From NCBI GenBank assembly GCA_902768715.1, contig CACXMH010000012.1:1-64000 (forward strand): DNA of 64,000 nucleotides. Direction: 5' to 3'. The translations under genes were made by a program, and so were the position numbers. Shown piece after piece: positions 2,274 to 56,596 of this stretch (its first letter is position 1; every line of letters starts with the position of its first letter). Source of the DNA: Fibrobacter succinogenes (GTDB lineage Bacteria; Fibrobacterota; Fibrobacteria; Fibrobacterales; Fibrobacteraceae). The notes beneath the pieces were generated by a model that was given only the letters and a program-made list of their open reading frames with translations, was not told where the DNA came from and did no database searches.

Positions 2274-3281
2274 ATGAAGCGTTTTTTTTGCATTTTATTG
2301 ATTTTTCTGGTGGTTTTGGCCGCTTTTGCCGGGATCCAAGGTAAAAAAAGACTGAACGCCGTCTCAAATAACTCCGAAACAGTACTCCTGGAAATCCCCA
2401 AGGGAAGTTCCGCGGCCAAGGTCGGCCAAATACTGGACGAAAAAGGCGTGTGGAAGGACGGACTGGCATTCAAGGTCCGGAACAAAATGGACAAGCCAAA
2501 CCTCAAGGCAGGCTGGTACGAGATTCCGCCCCGGCAGACTCTGGAACAGATTTTCGCCCTGCTTGCAAGCGGCAAGAACGCCGTACGCAAGGTGACCATT
2601 CCCGAAGGCCGGGCAAGCTGGGAAATTCCCGCCTACCTGAAAAAGGCGTTCCCCGACCTGAACGAGGACCGCTGGAACAAGTTGGTCCAGGACCCGAAGT
2701 TCGCCCAGTCCCTGGGCGTTGATGCAAACTCGCTGGAAGGCTATTTGCTGCCCGACACCTACCCCTTCGCCATCGATGCCGACGAAGAGACCATCATCAG
2801 GCAGATGGTGGCCGCGAACCTGAAGGTGCGGGACGAGATGAAAAACAAGCCAGGCTCCAAGTGGGCAACCCTCGGCAACTGGCACAAGGTGCTTACCCTT
2901 GCAAGCGTGGTGGAAGAAGAAACCGGCAAGCCCGACGAGCGGTTCTTGATTGCAGGCGTTTTCCACAACAGGCTTGAAATCGGCATGCCCCTAGGGGCAG
3001 ACCCCACGGTGCGGTTCATCTTCAGGAATCTGACCGGGCCCATCTACAAGAGCCAGCTCAACAGCGACAGTCCCTACAACACCCGCAAGTTCAAGGGCCT
3101 GATGCCAGGGCCTATTTCGAACCCAGGGCGCAAGGCCATAGAGGCGGCCCTATTCCCAGCCGACACCAAGGCCCTTTACTTTGTTGCAAAAGACGACGGT
3201 TCGGGCACTCACTTCTTTAGCAGCACGCTCAGCGACCACAACAAGTTCAAGGACGTAGCGGCGAAGAATAGAGGGGAGTGA
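2274..3281 (+). CDS. mltG: Endolytic transglycosylase MltG
   Basis: Membrane-anchored lytic transglycosylase that cuts nascent peptidoglycan strands in the periplasm and acts as a candidate terminator of glycan elongation. Residues 4-22 form the N-terminal membrane anchor. A LysM-like segment follows (about 35-105). The YceG core carries the family motifs EGYLLPDTYPF (about 155-165), SVVEEET with the presumed catalytic Glu at 214, GVFHNRLEIGMPLGADPTV, SPYNT and GLMPGPISNPG, and ends in the usual YFVA...G.H.F segment. At 335 residues it has normal length. Its neighbours are a convergent patatin gene and, upstream, an opposing secreted protein, so it is probably monocistronic. Confidence 0.95.
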   Translation: MKRFFCILLIFLVVLAAFAGIQGKKRLNAVSNNSETVLLEIPKGSSAAKVGQILDEKGVWKDGLAFKVRNKMDKPNLKAGWYEIPPRQTLEQIFALLASGKNAVRKVTIPEGRASWEIPAYLKKAFPDLNEDRWNKLVQDPKFAQSLGVDANSLEGYLLPDTYPFAIDADEETIIRQMVAANLKVRDEMKNKPGSKWATLGNWHKVLTLASVVEEETGKPDERFLIAGVFHNRLEIGMPLGADPTVRFIFRNLTGPIYKSQLNSDSPYNTRKFKGLMPGPISNPGRKAIEAALFPADTKALYFVAKDDGSGTHFFSSTLSDHNKFKDVAAKNRGE

Positions 3282-3486
3282 GGCAGTGAGGTGTGAGGTG
3301 TGAGGTATGAGGTATGAGGGTTATTGAAAAAGAATTCGTCATGTTCGCCCATTCGACAAGCTCAGGGCAGGCTCCGGCGAACATCCGCTTACTGCAACCC
3401 AGCGGATCCCCGACCAAGTCGGGGATGACATTCCTCAAAGCGAAGCGACCTCAAATCCCTAGCCCCTAGCTCCTAGATCCTAACCC
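3282..3486 (+). repeat. Composite intergenic repeat between convergent genes, copy 1
   Basis: Starts with a TGAGGTG/TGAGGTA 7-base reiteration, then AAAAAGAATTCGTCATGTTC, a CCGCTTACTGCAACC stretch, a REP-like palindrome ending GGGGATGAC, the string CCTCAAAGCGAAGCGACCTC, and a CCTAGCCCCTAGCTCCTAGA-type array. The same block order recurs at 30509-30742 and 43578-43780. No gene is seen here. Confidence 0.8.
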
Positions 3487-6057
3487 CTAAAAACTATAAT
3501 TCCCGACGCGAATAAAGAAGGTGTAGTCCATCACGTCACCCAGCTCGTCGAGAGTTTCGCGGTCCACCAGGCGGGACATTCCCGCAGATACCGAGATGGA
3601 CTTGTACGCAAAGCGTAGCGTCGGTTCCAGAATAAACTTGTCCGGCCCGAGGTGCGCCGTTGGATTTTCTTCGAAGTCCCGCACGTAGGCACCAAACACC
3701 CACATGCCGAAAATACCCTTATGAAGCCCGAGGTTTATACGGGCAAGTCCATAGTGGTGGCTCAGCAGTTCCGGATTGTACCATTCCCCAGTCCAGGGGG
3801 TGGCCGCAACACGCCTGCGGTAGAAATTGTCCAGCGGCAAGAGCCCCGTCGATTTGGGATAGACATAACCATGACCTTCGTCGTGATACATATCTACGCC
3901 ACCACCCAGGAAAAGTCCCAGCGTCAAGAAAGATACCGGTGAGCGACTGGCGTACATTTCCAGAGAAAGCTTGTGGTATATGGGAATCAGTTCCGCAATG
4001 TCAATCTTGTAACGCACGGACTGGAGTCCCCACCCCAAGAGCAAAGACTGTCCCCCATAAGAGAAGAACGGATCCGTGTCGCCGCCTTCGTAGCGGTACT
4101 GGAGGGCCGGCGAAACAGGCCAGGTTTTCAGTTTGTCCATCCGGTACACCTTGGCAAAGTCAACGGTCCGTTCGCCCAACAAGAATGCAAGCGAAGCCAC
4201 CTGATGGGCAGTCAAGTGATAATCCACCCACATATTGAAATCACTGCGTTTTTCGCCCCAGGGAGTTGAATAATACGCGTTGTCTTCCAAGTAAGATTCA
4301 AAAGGCTGCAGGGTCTGCCAGTCGTAACGTAGCCCCACCGACCAGTCCCTGTTCCACAGGCGGGAAATTTCCAGCTTGGGGCTTACACCGTATGACCTTG
4401 GGCCCACGAATCCCGAAACCCCGAGAGCGATATCCATCTGGTTCACGAAGGAGAGCGTCATATCGCCATAGGCGTGTGGCCCGATGGCGTTGGACCCGAA
4501 ACCGCCCACAGAAATATCTACCGTCGGGGCGACCTTTGCCCCCACCAGCACGTTCCCCGTCGGCAACATGTCAAAGGAAACGGAATCGTAGGCAGGCTCC
4601 TTGGAAATTTCTTTCAAGAAATTTTCGGGCGCCACCATGCCCGTGTCGCTTTCGTTCCAGTAAGAGGCTATAGTGGAATGGGTTTCTGCAGACAGGCTGT
4701 CAAAAGACGGTTTGAACTTGAACCATGGTGCAGCCACCTTCTTGAAAGTCAAATAATCCAGGGAATCGTTCCTGAAAGGCATCAGTTCCGTAGCGTGTCG
4801 TTCCAAGGCAGAGAACCCCGCCTGAATCCATGCCGTATAAGCAGAATCCGTAGCATAATGGGCACGGAGCACTACACCGGACTCCTGGTAAGACAAGTTC
4901 TGCAGGGGCTTTTCGAAAAGGATTCGCTGCCAGGGAGAATTCCAGGACGACACGGAAGCCTTCGCCACCCGAGGGATACCTACCGAGATAATGGGGACTT
5001 GCTCATAGACATCTTCAAAGGGCACGGCAAGGCCCGGACACAGTTCTCCGGAGTTGTAGTTTTCAATCAAGGGCAAACTCTTGAACACATACTCCGAAGT
5101 ATTCCATTGTTCGCCGTTACAGCCAAGCACCGTAAAGGGAATCACCGCCCCGCGAGGCACGCGGTTCATGGCTTCTTGAAAGCGGAGCTTTGCAAGGGCA
5201 TATCTGTGGGCGGAAGTATCCGGTTCAAAGGACTTGGGAATTTTCCGCAAGGTCATGGACGAATCCGGCTGCAACGCATAACGGTAGCGCAGGCTGGGCA
5301 CGCCGTCGGGAGAAATGGGCCACCTGGCCTGCTCCTGCTTTTTATTGTACAGGTCGTCGAACATATTGTGGCCCATGTAGCCCTGCAGGTACGGGTCCAG
5401 CAGCACTCGCTGGATATCGTCTAGCGTCATACCATGGGTCCAGAGGTAGCCCACAAAAGCGCCCCACGAAGTACCTACCACGGAATCAATGCGGACCTTG
5501 TAGGTTTCGATGGCATAAAGCACACCCAGGTGGAACCAAGGAGAACGCTCGCCGCCGCTGAGGTAGAGAACGGATTTCTTAGGACCTGAATTCGGATTTC
5601 GGATTTCGGATTTCGGAATGTCTGAATCGGAAGGAACGGTTTCGCCTGTCGTCAAATCTATGGTTTCGCATTTCCACGAGGTGTCGGGGGAAGCCTCCCC
5701 CTCGCTCCCGCCGCATGCCATCTCCGACTTTCTCTTGTCATCCTCGCGTAGGCGAGGATCCCCTATCAGTTCTCCCTTTTCTGCGGCGTCCGCTACCCCC
5801 TCTGCGGGGGACACCCCCACAACGCCCCCGCTGTCAGGACTAGAGGCTCGAGGAACGTCATCCTCGCGTAGGCGAGGATCCGCTTGAGGGGCTTGAGGTT
5901 CAGATGCAGGAGCCTGCGCCGTAGAATCCTGGGCAGCCGTCATCTGCGACAGCAGACTGTCGGCAGGTTCTGCAGGCAACAAGGAAAAAGCGACCAACAG
6001 GATGGCCGCTACCTTCGGCAAAAAGCGCCTAGGCAAACCTTGCGGGATTGGCCACAT
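3487..6057 (-). CDS. Patatin-like phospholipase with C-terminal outer-membrane beta-barrel
   Basis: Residues 1-33 are a signal sequence. Residues about 57-160 are a low-complexity linker derived from repeats, with DPRLREDD twice. The patatin fold begins near 162: the oxyanion-loop segment LSGGERSPW and the nucleophile elbow GTSWG with Ser197. I could not find the usual DG[GA] Asp partner, so catalysis is uncertain. From about residue 500 the sequence becomes alternating aromatic strands typical of a BamA-like surface-antigen barrel and ends in F, as outer-membrane proteins do. The family includes self-secreted patatins of the PlpD type. The start overlaps the PilT-like gene upstream by 29 bases, which suggests translational coupling and a shared operon. 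Confidence 0.8.
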   Translation of the reverse strand: MWPIPQGLPRRFLPKVAAILLVAFSLLPAEPADSLLSQMTAAQDSTAQAPASEPQAPQADPRLREDDVPRASSPDSGGVVGVSPAEGVADAAEKGELIGDPRLREDDKRKSEMACGGSEGEASPDTSWKCETIDLTTGETVPSDSDIPKSEIRNPNSGPKKSVLYLSGGERSPWFHLGVLYAIETYKVRIDSVVGTSWGAFVGYLWTHGMTLDDIQRVLLDPYLQGYMGHNMFDDLYNKKQEQARWPISPDGVPSLRYRYALQPDSSMTLRKIPKSFEPDTSAHRYALAKLRFQEAMNRVPRGAVIPFTVLGCNGEQWNTSEYVFKSLPLIENYNSGELCPGLAVPFEDVYEQVPIISVGIPRVAKASVSSWNSPWQRILFEKPLQNLSYQESGVVLRAHYATDSAYTAWIQAGFSALERHATELMPFRNDSLDYLTFKKVAAPWFKFKPSFDSLSAETHSTIASYWNESDTGMVAPENFLKEISKEPAYDSVSFDMLPTGNVLVGAKVAPTVDISVGGFGSNAIGPHAYGDMTLSFVNQMDIALGVSGFVGPRSYGVSPKLEISRLWNRDWSVGLRYDWQTLQPFESYLEDNAYYSTPWGEKRSDFNMWVDYHLTAHQVASLAFLLGERTVDFAKVYRMDKLKTWPVSPALQYRYEGGDTDPFFSYGGQSLLLGWGLQSVRYKIDIAELIPIYHKLSLEMYASRSPVSFLTLGLFLGGGVDMYHDEGHGYVYPKSTGLLPLDNFYRRRVAATPWTGEWYNPELLSHHYGLARINLGLHKGIFGMWVFGAYVRDFEENPTAHLGPDKFILEPTLRFAYKSISVSAGMSRLVDRETLDELGDVMDYTFFIRVGNYSF
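5583..5881. repeat. Repeat block inside the patatin linker
   Basis: Contains a run of GGATTTCGGATTTCGGA type (5590-5618) and two identical 25-base palindromic elements, GTCATCCTCGCG-TAG-GCGAGGATCC, at 5737-5761 and 5857-5881. GC-rich strings containing GGGGGACACCCCC lie between them. The same palindrome family occurs between genes elsewhere in the window. Here it is translated in frame as DPRLREDD. Confidence 0.85.
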
Positions 6058-7038: not shown

Positions 7039-8664
7039 TTATGCCTCCCCGCCTGCAGGATGATACGCCGCAAAGCGTCTAATGTCGTTTGCCCGTTTCC
7101 AGGCCTCTACACCGTCGATGTAACCCGCTTCCACGCATTTCTGCAGGGAATCGTCCAAAGTGATTCCCTGGTCCCGCTGGCTACTGATAGCGGCATTCAG
7201 CTGAGACAGGTCGCCCTTGCGGATCATGCCCGCAATAGTAGGCGTCACCCGCACGGCTTCGGCGGCAAGAACCAGGCCCTGGTTATCTACCACAGGAACC
7301 AAGTGCTGCACGATAACGCCCTTCAGCTGGTCTGCCAGGGAACCGGCCAAAGAAGACCGTCCGCTTTCGGGAACAGAAACCAGGAGTCTCGAAAGCAGGG
7401 CGTGGATGTTGTTCCCGCGGGTAACGGCAAACACCAGAGCGCCGGAATTGGCGGCCTGCAAAAGCAGGTTCAGTTCATCCACGTTTTCCAGATGGTCAAA
7501 GCAAATCACGTCGGCACCGTCACGCATAGCAAGGGCGATTCCGTCTAGCCCCGTACGGACATGGAGTCCCACCTCTTTCTGGACTAAAGCGCCACCACCG
7601 CCCTGCAAGATTCTTTCAATAGGCCGTTCGATGGTCTGGATGTAGCACGGACGGTTTGCGGCAATGGTTTCGGCGAAGGCGTTCACCGTAGTGGTGCGCC
7701 CGCTGGCCGAGGGCCCAGCTACCAGCACAAGGCCGCTGTTGAGTTCTGCAAACTGGGTGCAGAAAGGCGGAAGGTTCAGAGAATCCAGAGCCGCCGCCTC
7801 CGTAGGAATCACCCGGATAGACACGCTGGGAACGACCCCGTTCCAGGTTACGGAAATACGGGCACGACCCACACCGGCGAGGGCGATGGTCTTGCTGAAG
7901 TTCCTGCCGGCCACCACCTGGTAGCCGTCGGCAAAACCTTCGGAGGCTTCGGCCAAAAGTTCAGAGATGCGGGTCTTATCTACCACCTGTTCGGTGGCCG
8001 GGAACAGCGCACCGGACTGGCGCATAACCACCTGACGGTTGGAATAAAGGTAGATGTCCGTAGCGCCGTACTGACGGGCAAATGCAATCATCTTTTTCAA
8101 GGACATGATGGGGAGCAGAGTCTGGGGCGCTTCTACCGCCGTTCCCTCTCCAGAAGAAAGGGCGAACTGGCGGGGCAGTTCCTGCTCGCCTTCTTCGGCC
8201 GAATCTTCGCCTAGTTCCTCGGCAAGGGCGATGGTCGAGATACTTGTAGTTTCCAGACCGGAAACCTTTTCCACCACCATGTTGGACGAAGAGGATTCGC
8301 CGTAAATGTTGTTGCCCTCGATCTGCAGGGCAGGCTCATCATCTACAGGTTCAGCCACGGCGGGCTTCGCTTCTACAGGAGCGGGCTTGGGTGCCGGAGC
8401 TGCGGCTGGAGCTGGCTTCGGAGCAGGGGCAGCTGGTGCAGCCTGTGCAGGTTGGGTCGCAGCGTTAGCGGCTGCATGTTTCGCCTCAAGGTTCTGCACA
8501 AAGGCAAGGACCTTCGCGTACATGGCCTCCTGCAATATGCCAGCCTTTACCAGGACCTGGCCAATATCCATAGATTCCGTAATTTCGCCCCAATGGGCCT
8601 TGACCTGGTCCTCCGAAACCACCTTGTTGTGGACGAGGACCTGTGCCATATACTGATTTCTCAT
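7039..8664 (-). CDS. PilT/GspE-family ATPase with N-terminal MshEN-like domain, Walker A Lys replaced
   Basis: The start is placed at ATG 8664: it overlaps the permease stop as ATGA and has GGAGG about 10 bases upstream, whereas the frame's only earlier start is a TTG. Residues 1-65 resemble a GspE/MshE N-terminal domain. An Ala/Pro-rich linker (about 70-115, PAPKPAPAAAPAPKP) follows, then an acidic stretch and a PilT-like ATPase core. Walker A reads GPSASGRTTT, with Arg for the invariant Lys. Walker B is ADVICFDHLEN. The His box has lost its His (VFAVTRGNN). ATP hydrolysis is therefore doubtful. Paired with the next ATPase gene it suggests a regulatory/catalytic hetero-assembly. Confidence 0.8.
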   Translation of the reverse strand: MRNQYMAQVLVHNKVVSEDQVKAHWGEITESMDIGQVLVKAGILQEAMYAKVLAFVQNLEAKHAAANAATQPAQAAPAAPAPKPAPAAAPAPKPAPVEAKPAVAEPVDDEPALQIEGNNIYGESSSSNMVVEKVSGLETTSISTIALAEELGEDSAEEGEQELPRQFALSSGEGTAVEAPQTLLPIMSLKKMIAFARQYGATDIYLYSNRQVVMRQSGALFPATEQVVDKTRISELLAEASEGFADGYQVVAGRNFSKTIALAGVGRARISVTWNGVVPSVSIRVIPTEAAALDSLNLPPFCTQFAELNSGLVLVAGPSASGRTTTVNAFAETIAANRPCYIQTIERPIERILQGGGGALVQKEVGLHVRTGLDGIALAMRDGADVICFDHLENVDELNLLLQAANSGALVFAVTRGNNIHALLSRLLVSVPESGRSSLAGSLADQLKGVIVQHLVPVVDNQGLVLAAEAVRVTPTIAGMIRKGDLSQLNAAISSQRDQGITLDDSLQKCVEAGYIDGVEAWKRANDIRRFAAYHPAGGEA

Positions 8665-11132: not shown

Positions 11133-11240
11133 AGTAGATAGGTAATAGGTAGTAGATTTTAGGGCTGGTGGGATCAAGAAGTATTAAAAGCTTCTTGATA
11201 CAGGCAATCCTAAAACCTATAACCTAAAACCTAAGACCTA
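11133..11240. repeat. TAGG/CCTA inverted array with hairpin upstream of uvrB
   Basis: Left arm GTAGATAGGTAATAGGTAGT, right arm CCTAAAACCTATAACCTAAA, imperfectly complementary. Between them is a clean stem ATCAAGAAG / CTTCTTGAT (about 11172-11198). No T-run follows, so this is not an ordinary terminator. It forms the 5' leader of uvrB and leaves no visible Shine-Dalgarno sequence. Confidence 0.6.
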
Positions 11241-11244
11241 GCAA

Positions 11245-13503
11245 ATGGCCCGCGCACGTAAGACAATCACACCCGACCCGTATGCGAAACCGATAGCGAA
11301 ACCGCTACCGCCCGAGCAGAGTTTGCCGGGGAAATTGAAGCAGTTCCAGTCGCCCACTCGCGCGAACTTTGAACTCGTGAGCCCTTACGGGGCGGCGGGC
11401 GACCAGCCGAAGGCCATCGAAGAACTGACCGAAGGTTTCAAGCACGGGGAACAGTTCCAGACGCTGCTTGGCGTGACTGGTTCCGGCAAGACTTTCACGA
11501 TGGCAAACGTCATCAAGAACGTGGGCAAGCCGACGCTGATTTTGACCCACAACAAGACGCTGGCGGCGCAGCTCTACCAGGAATTCAAGGCGTTCTTCCC
11601 CCACAATGCGGTGGAATACTTCGTGAGCTATTACGACTATTTCCAGCCCGAAGCGTACATTCCGCACACGGACACCTTCATCGAGAAAGACGCAAGCATC
11701 AACGACGAAATCGACAAGCTCCGCCTGCGCGCGACCGCGAACTTGCTGACCCGCCGCGACGTGATTATTGTCGCCTCCGTGAGTTGCATCTACGGTTTGG
11801 GTAGCCCCAGCGAATATTTCGACTTGATGGTGCGCATCAAGAAAGGCGACGTTTACGACCGCGACAAGATTCTGCACGATTTGGTGCGCATTCAATACAC
11901 GAGAAACGACTTCAGCCTAGAACGCGGCAGTTTCCGCGTACACGGCGACGTGATTGAAATTCACCCAAGTTACGACGAAGAAGGCCTCCGCATCGAGCTT
12001 TTCGGCGATGAAGTGGACCGTCTCGTGCGATTCAACATGGTTACCGGCGAAGTGACGCAGGAAATGGACGAGATGACCATCGCTCCGGCGAAGCACTTCG
12101 TGACTAAAGAAGAAGGACGTGCGGGAATCTTGCAACGCATGCAGATGGAACTCACCGAGCGTCTTGCGGAACTGGACAAGGAAGGCAAGGTGCTGGAATC
12201 AGCCCGTCTTTCGAGCCGTACCCGCTACGACATGGAAATGATTCGCGAGACCGGCATGTGCAGCGGCATCGAGAACTACTCCCGCATCATCGAGAACCGC
12301 GCACCGGGTACACGCCCGTTCACGCTCATCGACTACTTCGGCGACGACTGGCTCTTGATGGTGGACGAATCCCACGTGAGCATTCCGCAGGTGGGCGGCA
12401 TGGCCGAAGGCGACAAATCCCGCAAGACAACGCTGGTGCAGTACGGGTTCCGCCTCCCCTGCGCCTTGGACAACCGCCCGATGAACTTCGCCGAATTCGA
12501 GTACATGTACCCGAAGCAGGTGCTTTTCGTGAGCGCAACTCCCGGCGATTACGAACTCACCAAGACGGGTGGCGTTGTCACCGAACAAATTAACAGACCC
12601 ACCGGACTTCTGGACCCGAAAATCGAGATGTTCCCCATCAAGGGCCAGATGGACGTGCTGCTGTACCGCATCGAGGAGGTCGTCAAGAACGGCGACCGCG
12701 TGCTGGTCACGACGCTCACCAAGAAGATGGCGCAGGACCTCACCGACTTCTTTGTGGAAGCGGGCATCCGCGCGCGTTACCTGCACAGCGACATCAAGAC
12801 GCTGGAGCGCCACGAACTCATCCGGGGCTTGCGCACCGGAGAATTTGATGTACTTGTGGGCATCAACCTGTTGCGCGAAGGCCTTGACCTGCCCGAAGTG
12901 AGCATGGTGGCCATACTCGATGCCGACAAGGAAGGCTTTTTGCGCAATTACCGCAGCCTCATCCAGACCATGGGCCGCGCAAGCCGTAACGTGAACGGCA
13001 CCGTATTGCTCTTCGCAGACAACATGACCGACAGCCTGGAGAAGGCCATCACCGAGACCGCCCGACGCAGAGCCGTGCAGGAAGAATTCAACAAGGAACA
13101 CGGCATTACGCCCAAATCTGTGACCCGCAAGCTGGAAGACGACCTGAGAATCGCGGATCCCCTTGGAATCGACGGTGACGATTCCGTCGATGAGGACGAG
13201 GAGATCCCCGCCTTGGTTCGGCTACGCTCACCACAGGTCGCGGGGATGACAAATGGGGAACCGGGCATCCGCCCGATGGAACCGCTGCAGCCCTCCAAGT
13301 TTAGACGAGAGAACGCTCGCAAGCGAGCTACAGGCGAGAGACGAGAGAAAGGCTCGAGGCACGATGTAAGAAAGGAGATCCCCGCCTCCGCGGGGATGAC
13401 AAGTTCGCTGGAAGACCTGGAGCGCCAGATGAAGGAAGCCGCCGCGCGCCTCGATTTCGAGGAAGCGGCGCGGCTGCGGGACATTATCCGGAATATGCGT
13501 TAG
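11245..13503 (+). CDS. uvrB: Excinuclease ABC subunit B
   Basis: DNA-damage-verifying helicase-like subunit of nucleotide excision repair. Conserved landmarks: [11 protein letters not shown] (from about residue 48), Walker A GVTGSGKT, the beta-hairpin [16 protein letters not shown], the helicase motif [27 protein letters not shown], and a C-terminal UVR motif ([23 protein letters not shown]). At 752 residues it is about 80 longer than usual, from a ~35-residue N-terminal extension and an in-frame repeat-derived insertion at about residues 653-718, between the helicase core and the UVR motif. The frame is intact throughout. UvrA and UvrC are not in the window. Confidence 0.97.
13202..13400. 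repeat. Repeat elements inserted in frame in uvrB
   Basis: Three elements: 13202-13250, a palindrome (GATCCCCGCC ... CGGGGATGAC) carrying the interior TTGGTTCGGCTACGCTCACC; 13310-13352, TTTAGACGAGAGAACGCTC plus GCTACAGGCGAGAGACGAG; and 13375-13400, a GAGATCCCCGCC/GCGGGGATGAC palindrome. Intergenic relatives of the first occur at 43676-43716 and of the second at 40674-40730. Confidence 0.85.
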
Positions 13504-27740: not shown

Positions 27741-27866
27741 CCGCTAGCCCTAACACCTTAAGCGGATCCTTGCCTCCGCGAGGATGACACCTCTTGAGAC
27801 CGTCTGTCCTAACCCCTAGATCCTAGCCCCTAAATCCTACCCCCTACTACCTAACACCTACACCCC
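27741..27866. repeat. REP-like palindrome plus CCTA-type array before batD
   Basis: CTAGCCCTAACACCTTAAGC, a GGATCC ... CCGCGAGGATGAC palindrome, then reiterated CCTAACCC, CCTAGATC, CCTAAATC, CCTACC and CCTAACAC units. It matches the right-hand parts of the composite repeats at 3282, 30509 and 43578. Confidence 0.75.
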
Positions 27867-27889: not shown

Positions 27890-29701
27890 ATGAAAAGATT
27901 GTTGTTGATTCTTCTCTGTCTGGCGGCGGTCGCAACGGCCCGCCCATCCCTGCAGTTGGACAGGGATCGAGTGGAATCGGGCAAGACCTTCGGACTGCAG
28001 CTCGTTTACCCCCTGGCAGAACTTCCTGAAAACCGCAGCGATTTGCAGATGGAACCCGCAAACGGTTTCACACTCGTCGGAATCGATAGTACCGACAAGG
28101 TAATCCGCCCCAGCATGGAAGACATGTTCAACTCCTTTTTTGGAGGCGGAAGCCGTGGCGGATACAAGGCCCGAATCTATACGTTCAAGTTGAAAGCTCC
28201 CAAAAAGACCGGACGAATCAGCGCCGGACAAATTTTCATGACCCTCGAAGGGCAAAAACGCAACCTTACAGGCGACATCCCTATCGATGTACAGCGGGCC
28301 TATAGCGACGAAGCCGTATCCGTAAGCCTCACACCCAGCAAAAAATCCATCTACGAAGGGGAACAGTTCTACGTCACTCTCGGGTTCCACACCTACGAGC
28401 ATTTCGAAGGAGGCCTGCAGGCCACCGACATGAGCACCGGCAACGACTTTATCGTCCACCGCGGCGACCTTTCCACCATGGAATTCAAGCCCGTCGAAGG
28501 CGCCCGCCGCGAAATGCAGGCCAGCGCCAAGTTCGCCTGGCTTTCTCCCACCAAAAACGGTACACTGCAAATTCCGCCCTTCAAGTTCAAATACACCAAG
28601 CGTGGCGAACCGAAAATCGTAGAAGAAAAAAAACAGATGGGCGGTATGTCTTTCCACAGCCAGTCTATCAAGCAGGAATCTATCGAAGCCGAAACCCAGA
28701 CCCCGACTGTAAACATCACGGTAAAGCCTTTACCCGCCCAGGGCAAGCCTGCAGACTTTAGCGGCATGGTTGGCGACTACAAGTTCAGCGCCGATTTCGA
28801 CCGCACAAACCTCAAGGTAGGCGAAGCCCTGACGCTATCCATAAACATCAAGGGCGACGGAACGCCAGGCACCATCACGGACCCGAAACTTCCCGATTTC
28901 AGCGAGTTCCGCTCCGTACCCCCCGAGAACAACATCTCCAAAAAGGTTACGGGGAACAAGGTCGTCACCACCAAGGACATCAAGGTTTTCCTCTACCCCA
29001 AAAAGAAGGGGACCTTTGAAATTCCGGCCATAAACTATTCCTGGTTCAACCCCGCCAAGAAAAAATATGAAACGGCTACCGCAGGCCCCTGGACCATCGA
29101 GGTGGAAAAAGGGGACGCAGGTGCCGAAGCCATTTTCCAGGGTCCCGTAGCAGGGTCCGCAGGCCCAAGCGCCGTGCAAAAACAGGAAATCGAATCCCTC
29201 GGGTCCGACATCCGGTTTATCCACACCAGCGCCCCAAAGTCGGACACTGTCGCTCCCTACAAGAGCGTGTTGTTCTGGATTCTCTTTACCGCAGCCATTC
29301 CTTTCTACATCATCGCCACCCTTCTTGTCAAGATCCGGCGCAAGCGTAACAGCAATGCGGCTCTGGTCCGCAAGGGGCATGCCAACAAACAGCTCAAGGA
29401 AAAGTTCGCCCAGGCCCGCAAGGCTCTCGAAGCAAGCGACGGCAAGGGATTCTTCGCCGCACTCGAAAACGGGCTCTTGAACTACCTGAGCGACACCACC
29501 AACCTGGAATTCAAGGGCATGACTCGCCCCCAGATGAAAGAGGAACTGGCAAGGCTCAGCGTGAAAGAAGAAACCATTGCCGCCATCGACAGCTGGCTCG
29601 AAAAATGCGCCTTCGTGCGCTACGCTCCCGTGACGGCCACGCCCGAAGAGCAAAAGCAGATGCTTGCCGATGTGGAAAAGCTATGCGAGAAAGTTAGATA
29701 G
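27890..29701 (+). CDS. batD: BatD-family protein
   Basis: 603 residues: signal peptide (1-18), a large periplasmic region of tandem beta-sandwich BatD domains (opening RPSLQLDRDRVESGKTFGLQLVY; a second SLTPSKKSIYEGEQFYVTLGF; a third DFDRTNLKVGEALTLSINIKGDG), one membrane helix near residues 462-482 (WILFTAAIPFYIIATLL) and a cytosolic helical tail. BatD belongs to the Bat (aerotolerance) set, which usually accompanies a MoxR ATPase and VWA proteins BatA/BatB. Here only batE follows, 42 bases downstream, across a short TTCGGAATTCGGA-type repeat (29702-29733). Function in envelope stress is inferred from the family. Confidence 0.85.
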   Translation: MKRLLLILLCLAAVATARPSLQLDRDRVESGKTFGLQLVYPLAELPENRSDLQMEPANGFTLVGIDSTDKVIRPSMEDMFNSFFGGGSRGGYKARIYTFKLKAPKKTGRISAGQIFMTLEGQKRNLTGDIPIDVQRAYSDEAVSVSLTPSKKSIYEGEQFYVTLGFHTYEHFEGGLQATDMSTGNDFIVHRGDLSTMEFKPVEGARREMQASAKFAWLSPTKNGTLQIPPFKFKYTKRGEPKIVEEKKQMGGMSFHSQSIKQESIEAETQTPTVNITVKPLPAQGKPADFSGMVGDYKFSADFDRTNLKVGEALTLSINIKGDGTPGTITDPKLPDFSEFRSVPPENNISKKVTGNKVVTTKDIKVFLYPKKKGTFEIPAINYSWFNPAKKKYETATAGPWTIEVEKGDAGAEAIFQGPVAGSAGPSAVQKQEIESLGSDIRFIHTSAPKSDTVAPYKSVLFWILFTAAIPFYIIATLLVKIRRKRNSNAALVRKGHANKQLKEKFAQARKALEASDGKGFFAALENGLLNYLSDTTNLEFKGMTRPQMKEELARLSVKEETIAAIDSWLEKCAFVRYAPVTATPEEQKQMLADVEKLCEKVR

Positions 29702-29743
29702 TTCGAAATTCGGAATTCGGAGTTCGGAATTGAGAAGGTTTAT

Positions 29744-30508
29744 ATGAAAAGTTTTGTATTTATTCTGATTACTATTCTAACGGCATTCGCCACCTCTAAT
29801 GCTGCGGAAACCTGTGCCGGTATCGAAGCAGGCACCAAGGCCTATAACGAAGGCGATTTCGAGCGAGCCGTTGACGAATGGCGAAGCTGTGCCGACAGCG
29901 GCATTAACGATGCTGACCTTTTCTACAATCTTGGGAACGCCTATTTCAGGAGCGGAAAGCTGGGATTCTCCATTTTCTACTACAAAAAAGCCCTCCGCCT
30001 TAGGGCCAACGACAGCGATATCCAGCATAACCTGAAATACGCCCAGGCCATGACCCGGGACAAGGTGGAAGAAGATTCCGAAGAAAACCCCATTCTGAAC
30101 GCCCTTTTCCAGGCGCATCACGCCATTTCTCTAAAGACGCAGCTCTGGATTATGCTCGGCATTTTCTGGGCCATAGCCATTGCCGCCGTGCTGACCAGAA
30201 TCAGCCTGCGTGAAAAGGCCCGGAACATTTTCACCGGAATCATTTTTGCGCTTACCATCGTCTTAGGAGTATTTGGCGCCAGTGCCGGCTACAAGATTTT
30301 TGTCCTGGAAACAGACATTACCGGAGTTGTCACCGCAAAGGACGCCGACGTGACCAGCGCTCCAAGCGACAAGTCCCAGACCCTGAACACCCTTTCCGAA
30401 GGAACTTCTTTCCAGGTGCTTTCTACCCAAGGAAATTTCGCCGAAATCCAGCTGGGCGAAAAAATCAAGGGGTTCGTCAAGCTCTCCGACGTAGGGATTG
30501 TGGAGTAG
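29744..30508 (+). CDS. batE: BatE-like TPR protein with C-terminal SH3-like domain
   Basis: 254 residues with a signal peptide (to about 20), tetratricopeptide helices (GTKAYNEGDFERAVDEWRSC ... LFYNLGNAYFRSGKLGFSIFYYKKALRL), two membrane helices (about 130-150 and 165-185) and a C-terminal bacterial SH3-like segment (VTSAPSDKSQTLNTLSEGTSFQVLSTQGNFAEIQL). This order is diagnostic for BatE-type proteins encoded after batD. It likely sits in the inner membrane with its TPR part facing the periplasm as a scaffold. Last gene of the pair; a composite repeat follows. Confidence 0.85.
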   Translation: MKSFVFILITILTAFATSNAAETCAGIEAGTKAYNEGDFERAVDEWRSCADSGINDADLFYNLGNAYFRSGKLGFSIFYYKKALRLRANDSDIQHNLKYAQAMTRDKVEEDSEENPILNALFQAHHAISLKTQLWIMLGIFWAIAIAAVLTRISLREKARNIFTGIIFALTIVLGVFGASAGYKIFVLETDITGVVTAKDADVTSAPSDKSQTLNTLSEGTSFQVLSTQGNFAEIQLGEKIKGFVKLSDVGIVE

Positions 30509-30742
30509 TTATGAGTTGTGAGTTGTGTGTTGTGAGGTATGGAAAAAGAATTCGTCATGTTCGCGCAGGCGAACATCCGCTTACTGCAATCTAGCGGATC
30601 CTCACTTTCGTGAGGATGACGAGAAAAGCCCGCGAGGGTGACAAATCTTGAAATCCGCAATCCCGAACCTCGAGCCTCATGCCTCAAAGCGAAGCGACCT
30701 CAAACCCCTAACCCCTAGATCCTAAATCCTATCCCCTAGATC
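30509..30742 (+). repeat. Composite intergenic repeat between convergent genes, copy 2
   Basis: Same order as copy 1: TGAGTTG/TGAGGTATG array, AAAAAGAATTCGTCATGTTC, GCGAACATCCGCTTACTGCA, a GGATCCTCACTTTCG/GTGAGGATGAC palindrome, CCTCAAAGCGAAGCGACCTC and a CCTAACCCCTAGATCCTAA array running to the sprA stop. Confidence 0.85.
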
Positions 30743-33700
30743 CTAATCAAACCGTAACATCAGCGCGATTTCGAACTGCAATATCTGCCGCAGGTGTGGC
30801 GTCTCGTCGTCCAGCTTTTCGTGAATCTGACGGTACTCGATGTAGCTGCTCATAGAAGCGATGCGGTTGAACTGGTAACCTGCGCTAGGCCGCACGAACC
30901 ATTCGTGTGTGCGCGAGGGTACCGTACGGTCTGTCTTGTGGAGTTCCGGCTTATAGACCGTGTAATCGTATCCGTCGATACTCCACTGCCTGAACACTCC
31001 ATCTGTGACGCTAGACTTGTTCCACATGTCGTATCCCGGGTCAGGGTCGTACTCTTTGCGGATGGTCTTGTTGTAGTCGTAGCCGGCGGTAAACTTCAGG
31101 TCGATATCGTTTTCCAGCTTGAAATACCATTTCCATAGCTGGAACCCGCGCTTGGTCTTCAGCGGGTATGAAATGGTCAGGTCATTTCCGATATTGATGG
31201 CAAAGTCGTTGTACAGGGAGGTATGAATCCAGGGGGTATCCCAGAAATAGTCCGTTGTATCCTTGGTATTGCCGTCAGTATTGGGCCAATAAGGGCTATC
31301 GAGAACCTCCTCTTTCGGACGTCTATCCGTCGATTCAATCTTTAGACGAACAGCGTTGTCAATCCTCATGTTGCTCTGGGTCAAGAAAGACAGGCGGACC
31401 AGCGGATTAAAGTTCCATAGGTGGGCCCAAGAATCTTCGGCACTCTGGAAAGGCCGTACCACGGTAGTCCTGGTATAATCAAACCGATGGGCCGCACTGA
31501 CGCTCTTGAAACCGTTCAGGAACGACACACGCTGGGAGAAATTAGGCACGTTCACGCCAATGCCTATCTTCGGCCACACCGTAGTGGTATCCAGGTAAAG
31601 GGGATATTCTCGTGACTGGTTGAATTCTTCACGCCACATCAGGTCTCCTGTAACGCTAATATCCCAGATAGGCAACACAATGCCCGTCCCTATCTGGAAC
31701 TGGCGAGACACAGAATGTCTGAAATTACCCTGATAAACAAGGGTATCTACATGATGGTTGCGATATTGGGCAAACCGTGTAAAATCATCACGATGGTCAA
31801 GCCCCATATCTCCGGTAACAATATTCCAGAAGCCCCTATTGCGGTATCCATTGCCCAGGCCTAGGCCATACAGGTAATACTCCATCGGTGTCACGCCCTG
31901 TTCCTCGTACAGTTGAGAAAGCGTAAAGTTTTCACCCACGGTGTTCGTCGTGGTCTGCCAACTCATGCGTATTTCATTCCACTTGATTTTGTCGAGGGAA
32001 GTAACCACCACATTCTCCCTGCCGAAATTCTGGAAGAAATCGATAATGCGGAACGTTGGGCTGAACTCAAACCGGTTCGTCTGGGAAATGGTCCAGTAGT
32101 TCTTCTCGATATCGTTGGCATCCAAGAAATCGTACTCGTCGGGAATGGTCTTTTGCTGATTAAAGTCCGAAGAAAAGGATGTATTGAACGGAATGAACGG
32201 AATAAGCCTCGGGTTGAAACCTATCTTGAACTGCTGGGTACGAGCCCGTTCATTGCGCAAAATTCCATAGGACCGTCCGTACTCACGCGTTCCAACACTG
32301 TCCACGCGGTAGAACGCAGAAGTATCGTAGCGGATTTCGTAGGTTTCCGGATTCTGCATGTCGATTGCCCACTCTCTGCCATCTTCCATAGTCCTGGCAA
32401 TCGTATCCCGAGGCACAATCACCACGCTGTCCTTGGAAACATAGACCTTGCGGTCCGTATGGTCATAGTCGAATACGTAATCGCTGGCAAAAAGACCGCC
32501 TTCTTTTGTGGTAAAGAAATTCTCCTTCACAAAACCTTCCCGGTCGCCACCCCCCTGCATGTCACGGGAGATGTTCAGGGAGTAGGACGTGTTCAACCAA
32601 GAAAGGATATTCCATCGCATGTTCAGTTTGTGGTTCAAGTCGGCCGTGTAAGTCACCACCTTGGCCACCTGGGGTTCCACGAAGTCAGGGTCTCTATCCT
32701 GATCCACATAACGCACATAATTGAAATCAAACAATGTCACATCAAAAGTTTGGGGCCAGGGCTCAAACTCCGTTGCCGCCATGGTCTTGCTGAAAGCATT
32801 GTCAAACTTGGAAAGTCCTTCAAACGGCTTTTTTCGGAACAGGGTAAACGTTCCCAACTTGTACTCCAAAATAGTCCTGTAGGAGTATGTGGAGTCAGCG
32901 CTGGTAGTAGCCCGACCTTCGGATTCCGCATACGAATAGCTTGCCGCCGGCCTTTCCAGGAAAATTTGGGATAGAGCCTCCCCTATCTTCGAATCCGAAG
33001 CCTTGTAATCCTTGCTATAGCTTACGCTAAAACTCTTTTCACGCACATAGGATTCATAGCCCTTGGATTCGGTTTCATCCCGTAGTTCCTGTTCCTTCTT
33101 GTTGGAGGTTACCGACAGGTCGTTCTGGAACATATCCTTGGTCAAATTCGAGAAACTGCTCTTCTTTAAAAGAAGGTCATCCGTAGGCTTCATGTAGGGG
33201 CGCTTGGTAGTACTGCTGTAGCCGAAGTTCATGGGAATATGGAATCCGAGACTATCGGCCAGGAACTTATTCAAGCTGAGGTTCAAATCTCCAGCCACAT
33301 CTAACTGGGACGCTGCATCCGAAAGTTTTGGTTTCGGAGAGCCTCCTGTAGTTGAAAGGGTTGCAAAATCACCATCCTGATAGCGTATTGCTCCGGACAA
33401 CGAAATAAAGTCCGCAAACTCCACCTGACCAGAAGTTCGTGCAGCATAGCCCCACTCCGTATCCATGCTGGAAAGCCGCAAATCATCAATCCAGAATGTA
33501 CCCTTCAAGTCTGCAGGGGACGCGTCGGCGTCGGCAATGACAACAAAGCGAATCCAGTCAATATGCGTCACAGAGGGGTTACCCACCAACTTGATTTGTT
33601 CATCACGGGAACTTCCCTCCACCTTACGGATCGTAGGCTCCAAGAAGGGCGGTTTGCGTCCCCGTTTCATATTGGAAAAATCGGACAAATCCATAGCAAA

Positions 33701-36700
33701 GGCGTTGTCCAGCCAGTTCTGTTCGTGACAGTCACTTGCACGGTCGCCCGAATTGCAGTTGTACCGGACCGGACGGAAACTCCACTCGTAATAATCGCTG
33801 GAACCGTCCAGAGAGCCTTCACCGAACTGGATGGCAAACCGCACCGGGACTTTCGCCGCCTCTGTCGTGTAATGAATTTCCATCTTGATGGACTTATAAC
33901 TGGACAAATCCTTCACATCGTTTTCAAAGACGCGGGTTACCCCTACCTCTTGACCAGGATTCAAATTCTGATAATCCAGAACCAAGGCGGTTTCCTTCAG
34001 AGGGGCGTTGGTTTCGGAATCACGTTCCGTCTTGGTGTTGGGGGACTTGGTATAGATATTGGAATCTTCGCGGTTGTTGATGGTGGTGACCTTGATGCGG
34101 CTAGTGTCACGGGTGTCCATAGATTCCTGTACCTGGGTGGGTACGCCGTTCACTTCCACCACCTGGGAATTTTCCGTAGAGCTGGTCTTGTAGAGGTCGG
34201 CCACCGTGGTTTCCTCCCAGGAATTTCCCACCACAGCCAAACTTACAATCTGTACCTTGGATTCAGCCACACCCGGATTCAAGCCACCAATCCAAAGTCT
34301 TGAATAGAGGGCTTCGGCTAGAATGGTCTTGTAGTCGCTTCCTGCGGGGGAAACAATGGTATCGTACTGGTTCAAGGGAATACGCCACTTGCGCCAGCCG
34401 TTTTTCAGGTCTTCGTAATCCATGTGGTCTGTCTTGGACAAATCGATGCGGTAGCGCACAAAGCTAATGTCCGTGTCCAGAGACCCGTTCTTGTTGATGT
34501 CTTCGGTATCGTACAAGCGTTCGCCAGAATTGTTTTCGGTACCGTTTATATGAACCGACGGATCGCTTTCGTTTTCCAGGTCTTCGTCGTAATTATCACG
34601 GGCGATATCCTTTTCAGAAGCATCCGAATTTGCAGCCGTAATCTCCGTAGAAATGCATCCCGAAATACGGCAGTCCCAAACCAGGCGTTTTTCGTCAGAA
34701 CCAGAAACCTTATCTAGGCCATTGTCGGTGCGGGCGACGGTTGTACCCAAATCGTTTTCGCCGTCATATTCCTCATTAGGTTCATAGCCATTGATGGAAA
34801 TGTCTTCGCTCATGAGCCCCAAGTCCAAGTAGATAGAGCCTACGTTTCCTCGAGCCACCACTTCCAAGTACTTCATTTCGCTCAGGTCCTGGTAGTAGGA
34901 ACTGTTAGGACGCATGATACCACCCCAAGAGTTGCCCACCAAGTTGTCGTTGGCACGAAGGGTCATCTTCAGCACTGTCAGGTGTTGATTATCTACATCG
35001 GAATTACCAACGCTAGGATAAATGTACTTGTACAGTTCCGTCGTATTGCTATGCCAAACGAATTCACCCTTGTGGCGATAGTCCTGGTTCTCGATATAGG
35101 TCGAAGGTTGGCGGGCGACACCTCCCGGAGGCGACGCCGGGTACCACGAAAGTCTGGTAAGGGGATAAGTAAGGCCAGAAACCGTAGATTCAAAATCTTC
35201 GACAAGGGCTTCATTGTCCCCGCTGGTGTTTGCGTTATGGCGGCTGGCCGCAAATTCCGCCTCAAAGCGCCAGCTGGATTTTGCCTCCGTCTCAATTCCA
35301 GGAATCAAGTTCACGAAGTCCGTCAGAGCCTGCACCGTGTCCTGCAGACGCAGGTTCATGCCCCACAGCACACTGGAGAAAGGCTCGTTCCCGAGGGTCG
35401 GGGTCTTGGCAGTGGTACTCTGGCTCTTATACAGTGCAGTGACACCGAACAGAGATCCCGTGCCAAAACCGTAGCGATCCAGCGGGAGTTCCGCTCGCGC
35501 GCCCAACAGCAACTTGTTGTCTATCTCGAACAAGGGCTCACATTCGAAGGTAACCTTGATTTCCTTGTTGGGGTCCAGGGCGCGCTCACTCAAAAGCTCA
35601 ATCTGGCCAAGCTCGTAGTTCACCTCGTAGTCCGTTCCCCGGATAAGGGTAGTAGAACCTGCAGTCAGCTTTTCTGTGCCCGGAGAAATATCCATGCAAG
35701 AACCCGCACTCACCGAGTAGCTAGAATTCGGATCCCGGACGCTAATAATGGAGTTACGGCGTTTACCCACGGATTCAAAGTAGAACCTGCTAGTAAAGCG
35801 GTTGAGCTTGTAAACAGGCAATGTATAAAGTTGGGCCATGGCTCCAGTGGAATCCAGCAGGCGAAGAGGTTCCAAGCAGTTTTCTCGAGCACGCTCCGTA
35901 GCACCCGCTCCTGAATACTGGGAGAGGGGCTTACAGGGGAGCCACATTTCGCCGGTGTAGTTTCCGGAGGCGTCCTTTTTGAAGATGGTAGCGTCGTTCA
36001 CCAGCGGGCTTCCGGTGGAGGTGTCCGCCACCCCAAGTGTCTTGAGGTAAGTGCCCGTCATGCCGGACTTGTTTTTGAGACGCAACACAAAACTGCTGGA
36101 ACTTGCATCAGAAATTCCCACGGAATAAACGTTGCGGAGCATCAGCTTGTCGATGTCCGTCAGTTCTGAAAGGGTGGCGTCCCACTGGACAAGCACCATC
36201 CTGGAACCATGCCTGATGGTAGTTCCCGTGCGTCCGCTACCGTCGTTACTCCAGCTGGCGGCCACCAGGGTATTGCGGTTCACCCCGTTGATTTTCAAAA
36301 TACCCGTCTTGGGATCATAAGTGTAATCGCTGGACGGAATTTCCTCCATACGCTCCACCAATTTCGTGATGGTTTTGCCACCAGGCGTCTTATACACTAC
36401 AGTGATGTTGTCCACCACGTCCTTGGCGTTGTTCAGGTTGCTGCGCTTAAAGAGTTTCAGGTTCGTGGCCGGGTAGTTCGAGGTGGTGCGTCCGGTAATG
36501 GCCGCACTGATGTAGTTGTCCCTGGCCTCGTGGTTCAAGAAGTAGTAGCGGTAGGCCACGAACTGCTTGTCCAGGATCTGGAATTCCGTAGTAGATTCGT
36601 TGGCGTTGATGGTGTATTCCTCCTGGGAACCGCCATCTTGGGATGCAATAGTGGTAAGCCTCCAGTCCCCCAGTTTCCAGTCTGCCTTGATACCGAATAG

Positions 36701-40673: not shown

Positions 40674-40823
40674 TTTTTAGACGAGAGAACGCTCCACCTA
40701 CGGCGTCGCTACAGACGAAAGACGAAAGATATCTGGATAGAACCGCACGGATCTGTGATGAAAACCGAAAAAACAACCCCCGTCTTTCGTCTATCGTCTT
40801 TCGTCTATCGTCTATCGTCTTTC
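40674..40823. repeat. TTTAGACGAGAGAACGCTC-type element and CGTCTTTCGTCTATC array
   Basis: TTTTAGACGAGAGAACGCTC followed by GCTACAGACGAAAGACGAAA (to about 40730), then within the next gene a CGTCTTTCGTCTATCGTCTT array (40781-40823) complementary to the GACGAAAGACGAAAG part. The left piece is a close relative of the one inside uvrB (13310-13352). Confidence 0.8.
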
Positions 40824-42149
40824 GCCATTCTCTCCCTCTTCTTGCTTGCAGCCTGTGGGGACTTTATGGAGCCGGTGGAAAGCACTCCGGAGCCCACCGC
40901 CTACGAGTTCAACTACTGGCTTTTGAACCACACCTATCTGTACGAAGCGGAACTGAAAAATTTACCCGCGGTCGGGGACAGCATTCCCCTTTTATACTCC
41001 GCACTGGAAGACCGCTACACCCGATACTACCCTCCCTCCAAGAGCGATGCCGCCGAAACCCACATGAACACCTCTATCGTGGAAGGGGAATTGGGCATGG
41101 AGTACATGATTGTCATTGAAGAAGGACAAATCAGCAATTACCCCATCATCATTTCTAGAGTTTATGCAGACAGCCCCGCAGGTAGGGCCAATGTCCCCCG
41201 ATTTGGCAGGATTCTTGAAGCCAACGGCATTTCACTTGCCGGTCCAGAATCAAAATTCATTTACGATTCCATCGTGGATTATTCCGCTGAAATTTTCCTT
41301 AAGGTTTTTTTCAGCGACAGTATATACCATTTTGACTTGATTAAGGAAGACGTCTATACACCGACAGTGTTCCTGGACACCATTTCATCTGTCACTTTTA
41401 TAACCATCACCGAATTCAAGTCCTCTACTTCTGACAGGGAAAACGGGACATTTGGAGAACTCAAGGCATACATCGACTCCACATCCAACGTATCTGCTCC
41501 ACGTGTCCTGGATTTACGGAATAATCCCGGCGGGTTAATCTCCCAGTGCCTATCCGCTGCCGACCTTTTTGTCAAAGAGGGCGTTCTGTCCAGTCGAAAA
41601 TTTGTAACATTTGCACCAGATGGGAAAAGAGACATAAGAACCTCGACCAACATGGCAAAATCCGGTGACCCTGGTGAAAACGGGAAATTCATAATGCTTG
41701 CCAACAGAGCTTCCGCATCCTGTTCCGAAATTTTTATTGCAGCCCTCAAAGAACAAGGAAACATTCCTCTTGCGGGAGAAACCACTTTCGGAAAGGGAAT
41801 TGGCCAGAGTCAATGGAAAACCATAGAGGGAGGCTTCGCCGTTATTACCAACCTGGAATTTTTCACACCCAAGGGTAACTCTTACCATAAAAAAGGAATC
41901 AATCCCGACCACCCCTGTTCGGGAAGTCCTACACGAAATTGCGCTCTGGAGGTTATCGACCAACTGTTCGGAAGTGAAAATCCTGCCAAGGCTAACAAGG
42001 GTTTCCAGAAACTTTCAACAGAGCGACAAGCCGTACAGAACATTCTTCTGACATCAAAAGATGCAAGTCCAGTAACTAAATCGAACCTTATGACAGGTGG
42101 AGCCCTGGACACCTTGATAAACCACGTCAATTACCCCTACACCCCATAG
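40755..42149 (+). CDS. S41-family peptidase lipoprotein (first of a pair)
   Basis: Start is GTG 40755 or the adjacent ATG 40758. The signal peptide reads PVFRLSSFVYRLSSFAILSLFLLAAC, with lipobox LAAC; its n/h region is encoded by the CGTCTTTCGTCTATC repeat. A helical N-terminal part and a degenerate PDZ-like segment (ISNYPIIISRVYADSPAGRANVP) follow. The S41 core has LRNNPGG, the nucleophile Ser in ASASCSEI and the general-base Lys in TTFGKGIGQ, the Ser/Lys dyad of tail-specific proteases. 464 residues. Probably an envelope protease anchored by lipid. Only six bases separate it from a paralogue. Confidence 0.88.
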   Translation: MMKTEKTTPVFRLSSFVYRLSSFAILSLFLLAACGDFMEPVESTPEPTAYEFNYWLLNHTYLYEAELKNLPAVGDSIPLLYSALEDRYTRYYPPSKSDAAETHMNTSIVEGELGMEYMIVIEEGQISNYPIIISRVYADSPAGRANVPRFGRILEANGISLAGPESKFIYDSIVDYSAEIFLKVFFSDSIYHFDLIKEDVYTPTVFLDTISSVTFITITEFKSSTSDRENGTFGELKAYIDSTSNVSAPRVLDLRNNPGGLISQCLSAADLFVKEGVLSSRKFVTFAPDGKRDIRTSTNMAKSGDPGENGKFIMLANRASASCSEIFIAALKEQGNIPLAGETTFGKGIGQSQWKTIEGGFAVITNLEFFTPKGNSYHKKGINPDHPCSGSPTRNCALEVIDQLFGSENPAKANKGFQKLSTERQAVQNILLTSKDASPVTKSNLMTGGALDTLINHVNYPYTP

Positions 42150-45106: not shown

Positions 45107-45186
45107 AAGGCAAATATACATAATATAAAGCGACGCGTAACCGACAAGTCGGAGCATTCGACGGCATCAAATTCTAAATTAAGGCC

Positions 45187-46473: not shown

Positions 46474-46514
46474 GATTAGGTTTTAGGGGCTAGGATCTAG
46501 GGGCTAGATAACTA

Positions 46515-50496: not shown

Positions 50497-50526
50497 TACC
50501 TACCACCTATAACCTACAACCTGTTA

Positions 50527-56586: not shown

Positions 56587-56596
56587 TGTATCTATC

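Follow-up and report, generated by a model that had tools for sequence, protein, structure and literature searches.

Outward-reading heptanucleotide arrays and REP-like hairpins between the genes of Fibrobacter succinogenes

Three gene junctions within a 64,000-nt stretch of Fibrobacter succinogenes DNA (the window, as we call the whole stretch analysed) carry the same composite repeat, which raises the question of what this composite is and whether it belongs to genes that face each other. A sequence-only reading had described the three copies as lying between facing genes and had proposed a mobile or recombining unit or a selected 3'-end structure for paired transcripts. All three copies (3282-3486, 30509-30742 and 43578-43780) are present in the sequence at the positions given by that reading, and the flanking genes do face each other, with plus-strand ORFs ending at 3281, 30508 and 43577 and minus-strand ORFs at 3487, 30743 and 43781. 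The proposed order of parts also holds, with two additions: a further REP-like hairpin between the TGAG array and the core, and extra heptads in copy 2. Followed inward from the plus-strand gene, each composite consists of TGAG heptads, a REP-like hairpin with a GTCAT head, the core ATCCGCTTACTGCAA, a second hairpin pointing the other way, then the box CCTCAAAGCGAAGCGACCTC and finally CCTARNY heptads, which extend into the minus-strand gene's stop codon. The outer arrays are tandem repeats of period 7, and the stop codon lies inside or touches the first unit. The parts are as follows.

3279-3326, plus strand: copy 1, array of TGAGGTG/TGAGGTA heptads, the first of which overlaps the TGA stop of the plus-strand gene 2274-3281
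3338-3384, plus strand: copy 1, REP-like hairpin with long loop, GTCAT-GTTCGC...GCGAAC-ATC
3383-3397, plus strand: copy 1, core ATCCGCTTACTGCAA
3402-3429, minus strand: copy 1, second REP-like hairpin in opposite orientation, CCCCGAC...GTCGGGG
3433-3452, plus strand: copy 1, box CCTCAAAGCGAAGCGACCTC
3454-3489, minus strand: copy 1, CCTARNY array (TAGGRNY-type on the minus strand); contains the TAG stop of the minus-strand gene 3487-6057
30504-30543, plus strand: copy 2, TGAGTTG-type array at the stop of the plus-strand gene 29744-30508
30552-30576, plus strand: copy 2, REP-like hairpin, GTTCGC...GCGAAC
30575-30589, plus strand: copy 2, core
30594-30620, minus strand: copy 2, second REP-like hairpin, CCTCAC...GTGAGG
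30650-30687, minus strand: copy 2, extra heptads of GAGGYTC type
30682-30701, plus strand: copy 2, box
30703-30745, minus strand: copy 2, CCTARNY array; includes the TAG stop of the minus-strand gene 30743-37579
43572-43630, plus strand: copy 3, TGAGTTA to TGAGGTG array at the TAG stop of the plus-strand gene 42156-43577
43626-43650, plus strand: copy 3, REP-like hairpin, CCTCAC...GTGAGG
43647-43661, plus strand: copy 3, core
43669-43716, minus strand: copy 3, second REP-like hairpin with long loop
43720-43739, plus strand: copy 3, box
43745-43783, minus strand: copy 3, CCTARNY array; includes the TAG stop of the minus-strand gene 43781-45157

The core occurs three times in the window against 0.08 expected occurrences, and a 15-base part of the box three times exactly and once with two mismatches against 0.17 expected. 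An Rfam scan of the window returned two tRNAs and nothing else. The composites are pairs of REP-like hairpins flanked by degenerate 7-bp arrays.

The genome that carries the window comprises 2,838,150 bases in 114 contigs and is 95% complete. Searching all of it with the core, as the sequence-only reading had suggested, brought up further copies, ten places altogether (nine exact, one with one mismatch) compared with one for the control. Three of these places are convergent (all in the window), three co-directional, three divergent and one lies at a contig end. The box was found at twelve places, four of them convergent, three co-directional, one at a contig end and four overlain by a called ORF. 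Among gaps of at least 25 bp, arrays occur in 19 of the 102 between convergent genes, in 75 of the 432 between co-directional ones and in 18 of the 146 between divergent ones. The core is thus spread about equally over the orientations and the arrays are not enriched at convergent pairs, so that the proposed link to convergent genes and paired 3' ends was not borne out; a placement unrelated to gene orientation is the very outcome that the earlier reading had named as speaking against it. The common element is the arrays, not the core, and they lie at 5' as well as at 3' gene edges.

The hairpins are a repeat class of their own. The pattern CAT, 6-bp stem, loop, stem, AT gave 135 matches in 118,786 bases of gaps against a mean of 2.3 in 20 shuffles; pairing is demanded by the pattern, so the finding is the diversity of the stems and not their pairing. 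Stems are CCTCGC (36), CCCCGC (24), GTTCGC (13), CCTCAC (11), GCCCGC (9) and others, loops are GAAG, GCAG, GAAA or longer inserts, and GT precedes 117 of the 135 matches to give the GTCAT head. The hairpins are thus short imperfect palindromes of high copy number, intergenic and with a conserved head, as REP/BIME elements are. Only 40 of the 135 are found at junctions with arrays. REP-like hairpins and degenerate 7-bp arrays are two intergenic repeat classes, independent of each other, and the composites are one way in which they are arranged. Within the same stems, loops are either 4-5 nt or 28-29 nt long (CCATTCGACAAGCTCAGGGCAGGCTCCG or GACCTGTGGTGAGCGAAGTCGAACCAAG; window 3338-3384 and 43669-43716 are examples), and the longer ones look, from their sequence, as if an insert had entered the loop. 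Relative to the nearest gene, the REP head (GTCATCC or GTCATGTTCG) stands 107 times in the away sense and 38 times in the toward sense in the gaps of this genome.

The arrays were surveyed by a motif-blind scan of 1,247,962 bases in 22 contigs with 1063 genes, which were called by a simple in-house hexamer scorer and not by a standard program. This 44% sample consists of contigs 1-11, 13-17 in part and five hit-bearing contigs (22, 26, 31, 37, 39), a choice by which array densities may be slightly high and polarity should stay unaffected. The scan found 159 stretches of period 7 as compared with 2, 4, 7 and 4 at lags 8, 10, 11 and 13 in these 1.248 Mb; multiples of 7 were also raised. Three successive CCTARNY units matched 106 + 70 times in the genome (reversed pattern 1 + 0) and three TGAGNTR units 24 + 11 times (reversed pattern 0). 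The families include TAGGTNN, TAGGRNY, TGAGNTR, TGTGNAR, TTCGGAA, GACGAGA and GAGGYTC, among others, and are often mixed within one gap. Like known intergenic heptamers they are tandem, of 7-bp period, strongly over-represented and intergenic. Several unrelated families adjoin stop or start codons, and the ATG is often abutted. Similarity at lag 7 directly 3' of the stop codon was detected in 39 of 1048 genes (0-1 at lags 8, 10 and 11), and 26 of 1050 genes repeat the stop codon at +7 and +14 (0-1 at lags 5, 6, 8, 9 and 10). A Shine-Dalgarno-like word within 20 nt of the start was present at only 262 of 1043 starts. In the assembly of one named relative (L147, about 7568-7672) a run of N interrupts a TAGG array; long arrays may break assemblies in this way and be under-counted. 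The window holds further arrays of the same system.

56591-56698, strand not assigned: TAGGTNN array (56591-56640) opposing a CCTANNA array (56659-56698) between convergent genes
11203-11249, minus strand: TAGGTNN array at the stop of a minus-strand gene
27803-27861, minus strand: TAGGTNN and TAGGRNY heptads upstream of a plus-strand gene
29697-29738, plus strand: TTCGGAA array that occupies the whole 42-bp gap between two plus-strand genes
46472-46508, plus strand: TAGGRNY array 3' of a plus-strand gene
50487-50526, minus strand: CCTANNA array that occupies the 30-bp gap up to the next ATG

TTCGGAA and TCTCGTC-type arrays also stand within called ORFs of the window (5582-5625 and 40774-40834). 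Of 203 arrays in all, 11 lie inside called genes, six of the 11 being TTCGGA; they may represent mis-called gene ends or arrays that are read as protein.

Defining an array as three or more units and an edge array as one at most 40 bp from a gene edge, we counted 203 arrays, 143 of them at edges and 60 more than 40 bp off. As many as 134 of the edge arrays read away from the nearest gene and only nine toward it, at 5' and 3' edges alike; as with known heptamers, the repeat thus lies on the non-coding strand upstream and on the coding strand downstream of ORFs. Both orientations are present in 42 of 114 array junctions, and all 42 run in the order '>..<'; the other 72 have a single orientation. 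When arrays were split by gap half rather than by nearest edge, 165 fitted and 22 did not. A second detector gave 127 away and eight toward with 41 of 41 mixed junctions in the window's genome, and 74 away and nine toward with 16 of 16 in 1.31 Mb of relatives, which have some junctions in common with the window's genome, so that the counts are not all independent. A motif-blind version of the polarity, based on G versus C, agrees; there six of six arrays have the expected sense in a species free of CCTARNY (G064), while in G024 one of three does. When the rule was relaxed to two units, the window's genome and the relatives yielded one C-first pair each within 200 bp, both of the TAGG family. 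Families with little G/C bias follow the rule as well, TAGTYA with nine away and two toward and TTCGGA with 17 away and three toward (own genome and relatives, all distances). GC skew is +0.401 (3') and +0.344 (5') at array edges versus -0.049 (3') and -0.038 (5') at non-array edges; because the latter show no skew, the polarity belongs to the arrays and not to gene edges in general. The two ends of one gap often carry different families. One cyanobacterial plasmid (350/366 kb) has eight arrays, five away and three toward, too few for a general statement.

An opposed order of this kind could yield paired arms. In the window's genome, however, complementarity is lower between the two arms of a junction than between arms taken from different junctions. 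At equal length, duplex energies of TAGG arms are -23.4 within and -27.0 between junctions (n=10; 0.9996 of permutations at least as stable), those of TGTG arms -17.8 and -20.5 (n=9; 0.998). Shared exact 11-mers under the two-unit rule are found in two of 16 cases for TAGG (6.2 expected, P 0.0075) and in two of 16 for TGTG (6.8 expected, P 0.0014); the window's genome and most relatives appear to be metagenome assemblies, by which 11-mers should be unaffected. Numbers for relatives are small (TGTG n=8, P 0.40; TGAG n=8, P 0.47), and one row, TGAG with shared 9-mers, points the opposite way (two shared versus 0.9 expected). Perfect hairpin arms were rejected, since both duplex energy and shared 11-mers are worse within than between junctions. 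The unit order differs between families: identical adjacent units are depleted in TAGG arrays (21 versus 32.1 in shuffles, P 0.0015), TAGGRNY arrays alternate almost strictly between GG and AT, and TGAG and TTCGGA arrays contain an excess of identical neighbours.

Comparison with relatives agrees with the earlier suggestion of a recombining unit, and a changing one: at the same junction the arrays vary in copy number, in presence and even in family, and the empty sites that the sequence-only reading had proposed to look for do occur. The 856-aa protein beside copy 1 has relatives at ten loci in named Fibrobacter assemblies, and nine of the ten keep the gene pair (L144 has another neighbour). 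Genes are back to back (TAGCTA) in L145 and L148 and separated by a few to about 20 bases in L149, L151 and L152, and L143, L146, L147 and L150 carry inserts of varying make-up that start at the stop codons. The relative G073 (94.1% identity over aligned DNA) offers 106 orthologous junctions, of which 87 lack arrays, 11 have them in both genomes and four and four in one only; the array flag in this comparison is loose and a few rows are borderline. The family differs at the same edge in several of these junctions, for example at C4 88268 (TAGG versus TGAG) and at C37 6361 (TAGG versus TTACTAG). In the junctions compared with relatives the ends are variable arrays, which often are not inverted copies of each other. 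The first 20 nt 3' of the stop are conserved at 62 of 82 non-array ends versus five of 16 array ends; for the 20 nt directly 5' of the ATG the figures are 51 of 55 versus three of seven. Array turnover is thus very fast at about 94% DNA identity, the same edge often having another family or none. In the G073 counterpart of gene C4 68695-70390 both the gap and the final codons are taken over by a TAGG array; arrays can therefore intrude into coding ends.

CCTARNY arrays are present in 47 of 111 genomes of the family. Of the 80 genomes of the genus, 53 contain TGTGNAR and 49 TAGTYAN, and 58 have at least ten matches to one of the three motifs. The counts of the three are uncorrelated across the 80 genomes (Spearman 0.09-0.10), and species therefore have different motif repertoires. 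In two genomes of another genus of the family (G013, G004) the reversed CCTARNY control itself gave 52 and seven matches, which suggests another heptad repertoire there. As for candidate machinery, a reverse transcriptase (RVT_1) scored above cut-off in 17 of the 80 genus genomes and a Y1 (RAYT-type) transposase matched in 27; neither matched in the window's genome (95% complete), the reverse transcriptase did not match in G023, G024, G032, G065, G066 or G073 either, and Ku was absent from all 80. Among the nine genomes with at least 100 array matches, two have the reverse transcriptase and two the transposase. The search of the 80 genus genomes thus lends no support to any of the three as the machinery.

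What, then, sets the polarity? Replication-fork direction cannot, since the polarity is reversed between the two arms of a single gap. Its source must be something centred on the gap, either an inverted-end element or synthesis that proceeds from both gene-side ends, or else selection at each edge. Ordinary microsatellite slippage with no added rule is improbable: tandem units of variable copy number and the excess of identical neighbours in TGAG and TTCGGA arrays would fit, yet it cannot yield opposite polarity on the two sides of one gap or the replacement of a family at a fixed edge. The same low standing applies to a selected bidirectional 3'-end structure, a terminator or stabiliser for facing genes as first proposed, since convergent pairs are not enriched, arms pair worse within than between junctions (TAGG 0.9996, TGTG 0.998) and the TGAG and CCTA arrays of the composites are not complementary, even though the '>..<' order gives inverted arms where one family occupies both ends and REP-like stems exist in many compensated versions. 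A mobile element (a MITE or REP/BIME unit) with heptad-array ends, inserted at gene edges, is unlikely. Orthologous sites are both filled and empty, core, box and hairpins recur, and the REP heads also point away from genes (107 versus 38). Against it, pure arrays are gained and lost where there is no core (C4 81272), content is wholly different between close relatives at several junctions, no target duplication was seen in the junctions compared by eye, and the Y1 transposase is absent from the window's genome and present in only two of the nine richest genomes. Repeats added from an RNA template by a telomerase-like reverse transcriptase similar to DRT10 would have the polarity of telomeres, and there is a precedent, for DRT10 makes tandem-repeat DNA from a noncoding RNA (PMC12632851). 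This route is highly improbable and already largely refuted, given that RVT_1 is lacking in the window's genome and six relatives and that only two of the nine richest genomes have a reverse transcriptase.

Selection on mRNA edges deserves more weight and is possible, if rather doubtful. Slippage would make arrays at random and selection would keep one orientation, favouring at 3' ends G/U-rich sequence that, 7 not being divisible by 3, has stop codons in every frame, and at 5' ends unstructured leaders, poor in G and rich in C and A; Shine-Dalgarno sequences are few in this genome. Stops repeated at +7 and +14 in 26 of 1050 genes, the low share of Shine-Dalgarno-like starts (262 of 1043) and the arrays that abut ATG codons are in agreement with this. 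However, the stop-free families TTCGGAA and GACGAGA mostly obey the same rule, array-free edges have no skew, and two separate reasons are needed for one rule. A three-frame stop array as the main cause was rejected: the stop is in register with the first unit, yet 5' edges and stop-free families obey the polarity. An element with inverted ends is disfavoured because families differ at the ends, arms pair poorly and arrays occur without cores, and edge selection because the rule is indifferent to stop or start edge and non-array edges are free of skew. With both disfavoured, we tentatively prefer end-directed repair synthesis with 7-nt slippage as the source of the arrays, a reading that is plausible but short of probable. 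Where intergenic DNA is broken or gapped, DNA synthesis would start from the 3' end on the gene side, run into the break or gap and stutter in 7-nt steps, and both sides of the gap would so receive outward-reading arrays, often of different families. REP-like hairpins in mid-gap may be a break-prone spot, selection would only spare codons, so that stop or start codons set the limit of the arrays, and transcripts would be affected, if at all, only secondarily. Several results do not sit well with end-directed synthesis: the reverse transcriptase and Y1 transposase are absent from the window's genome and Ku from all 80 genus genomes, nine of 143 edge arrays break the rule, 72 of 114 junctions have one orientation only, and the depletion of identical adjacent units in TAGG is not predicted by plain slippage, whereas TGAG and TTCGGA show the expected excess. 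That a general, motif-independent bacterial process of this kind, end-directed repair synthesis with slippage, writes 7-nt repeats from gene edges outward into intergenic DNA, with species-specific motif repertoires, is a wider and fairly unlikely proposition; if true, it would account both for the first rank of heptamers among the intergenic tandem repeats of prokaryotes and for the outward polarity common to Fibrobacter, Xanthomonas and Nostoc.

Heptanucleotide intergenic arrays are familiar from cyanobacteria as STRR (short tandemly repeated repetitive) heptads, which the Fibrobacter arrays resemble in unit length and intergenic position. The hairpins are like REP/BIME elements in being many short GTCAT-stem-loop-stem-ATC structures, sometimes in head-to-head pairs, and unlike them in that the window's genome has no Y1 (RAYT-type) transposase; heptad arrays are not known to be part of REPs. 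A search of open-licence papers returned no description of heptad arrays in Fibrobacter. In a survey of 7006 prokaryote genomes heptamers are the most abundant intergenic tandem repeats, and the survey saw 'no clear clue' to their function (PMC6344855). Closest are the G-rich heptamers of Xanthomonas and Nostoc, which are intergenic, lie beside ORFs, upstream on the non-coding and downstream on the coding strand, and vary in length and sequence among close relatives (Rehm et al. 2015, PMC4692102). The Fibrobacter arrays share with them the period of 7, the intergenic position, the outward polarity and the variability. Whereas that source describes one G4-forming motif per lineage (GGGAATC or GGGGAYT), discusses it in terms of quadruplexes and reports under-representation between divergent genes, Fibrobacter has many families that are mixed in one gap and quickly replaced, some of them without GG (TGAGTTA, TGTGTAA, TAGTTAC); TGAGTTA, TGTGTAA, TAGTTAC and TTCRGAA units have no run of three G and, by sequence, would not be expected to qualify as G-quadruplex motifs. 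The TAACTGA direct repeats of Beggiatoaceae, Cyanobacteria and Bacteroidetes often end directly before the start codon, as Fibrobacter heptads often do, and are sometimes split by related heptads (MacGregor 2015, PMC4679880). They are described as one motif, mostly upstream of starts in the main genome, and read as possible binding sites for translation control, in contrast to the many families at both gene edges in Fibrobacter. TAACTGA-type units do occur in the relative G073, in the right half of a gap (counterpart of C7 54325 in the window's genome). Already known are heptamers in Xanthomonas and Nostoc, with outward polarity of the G-rich motifs, and TAACTGA repeats close to starts in Beggiatoaceae; new are the many motif families under one polarity rule, that is, its independence of the motif, the turnover and the species-specific repertoires. 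With many families in one genome, one rule and this turnover, Fibrobacter separates the rule from a single motif or a G-quadruplex and makes an origin by synthesis versus selection by RNA directly testable.
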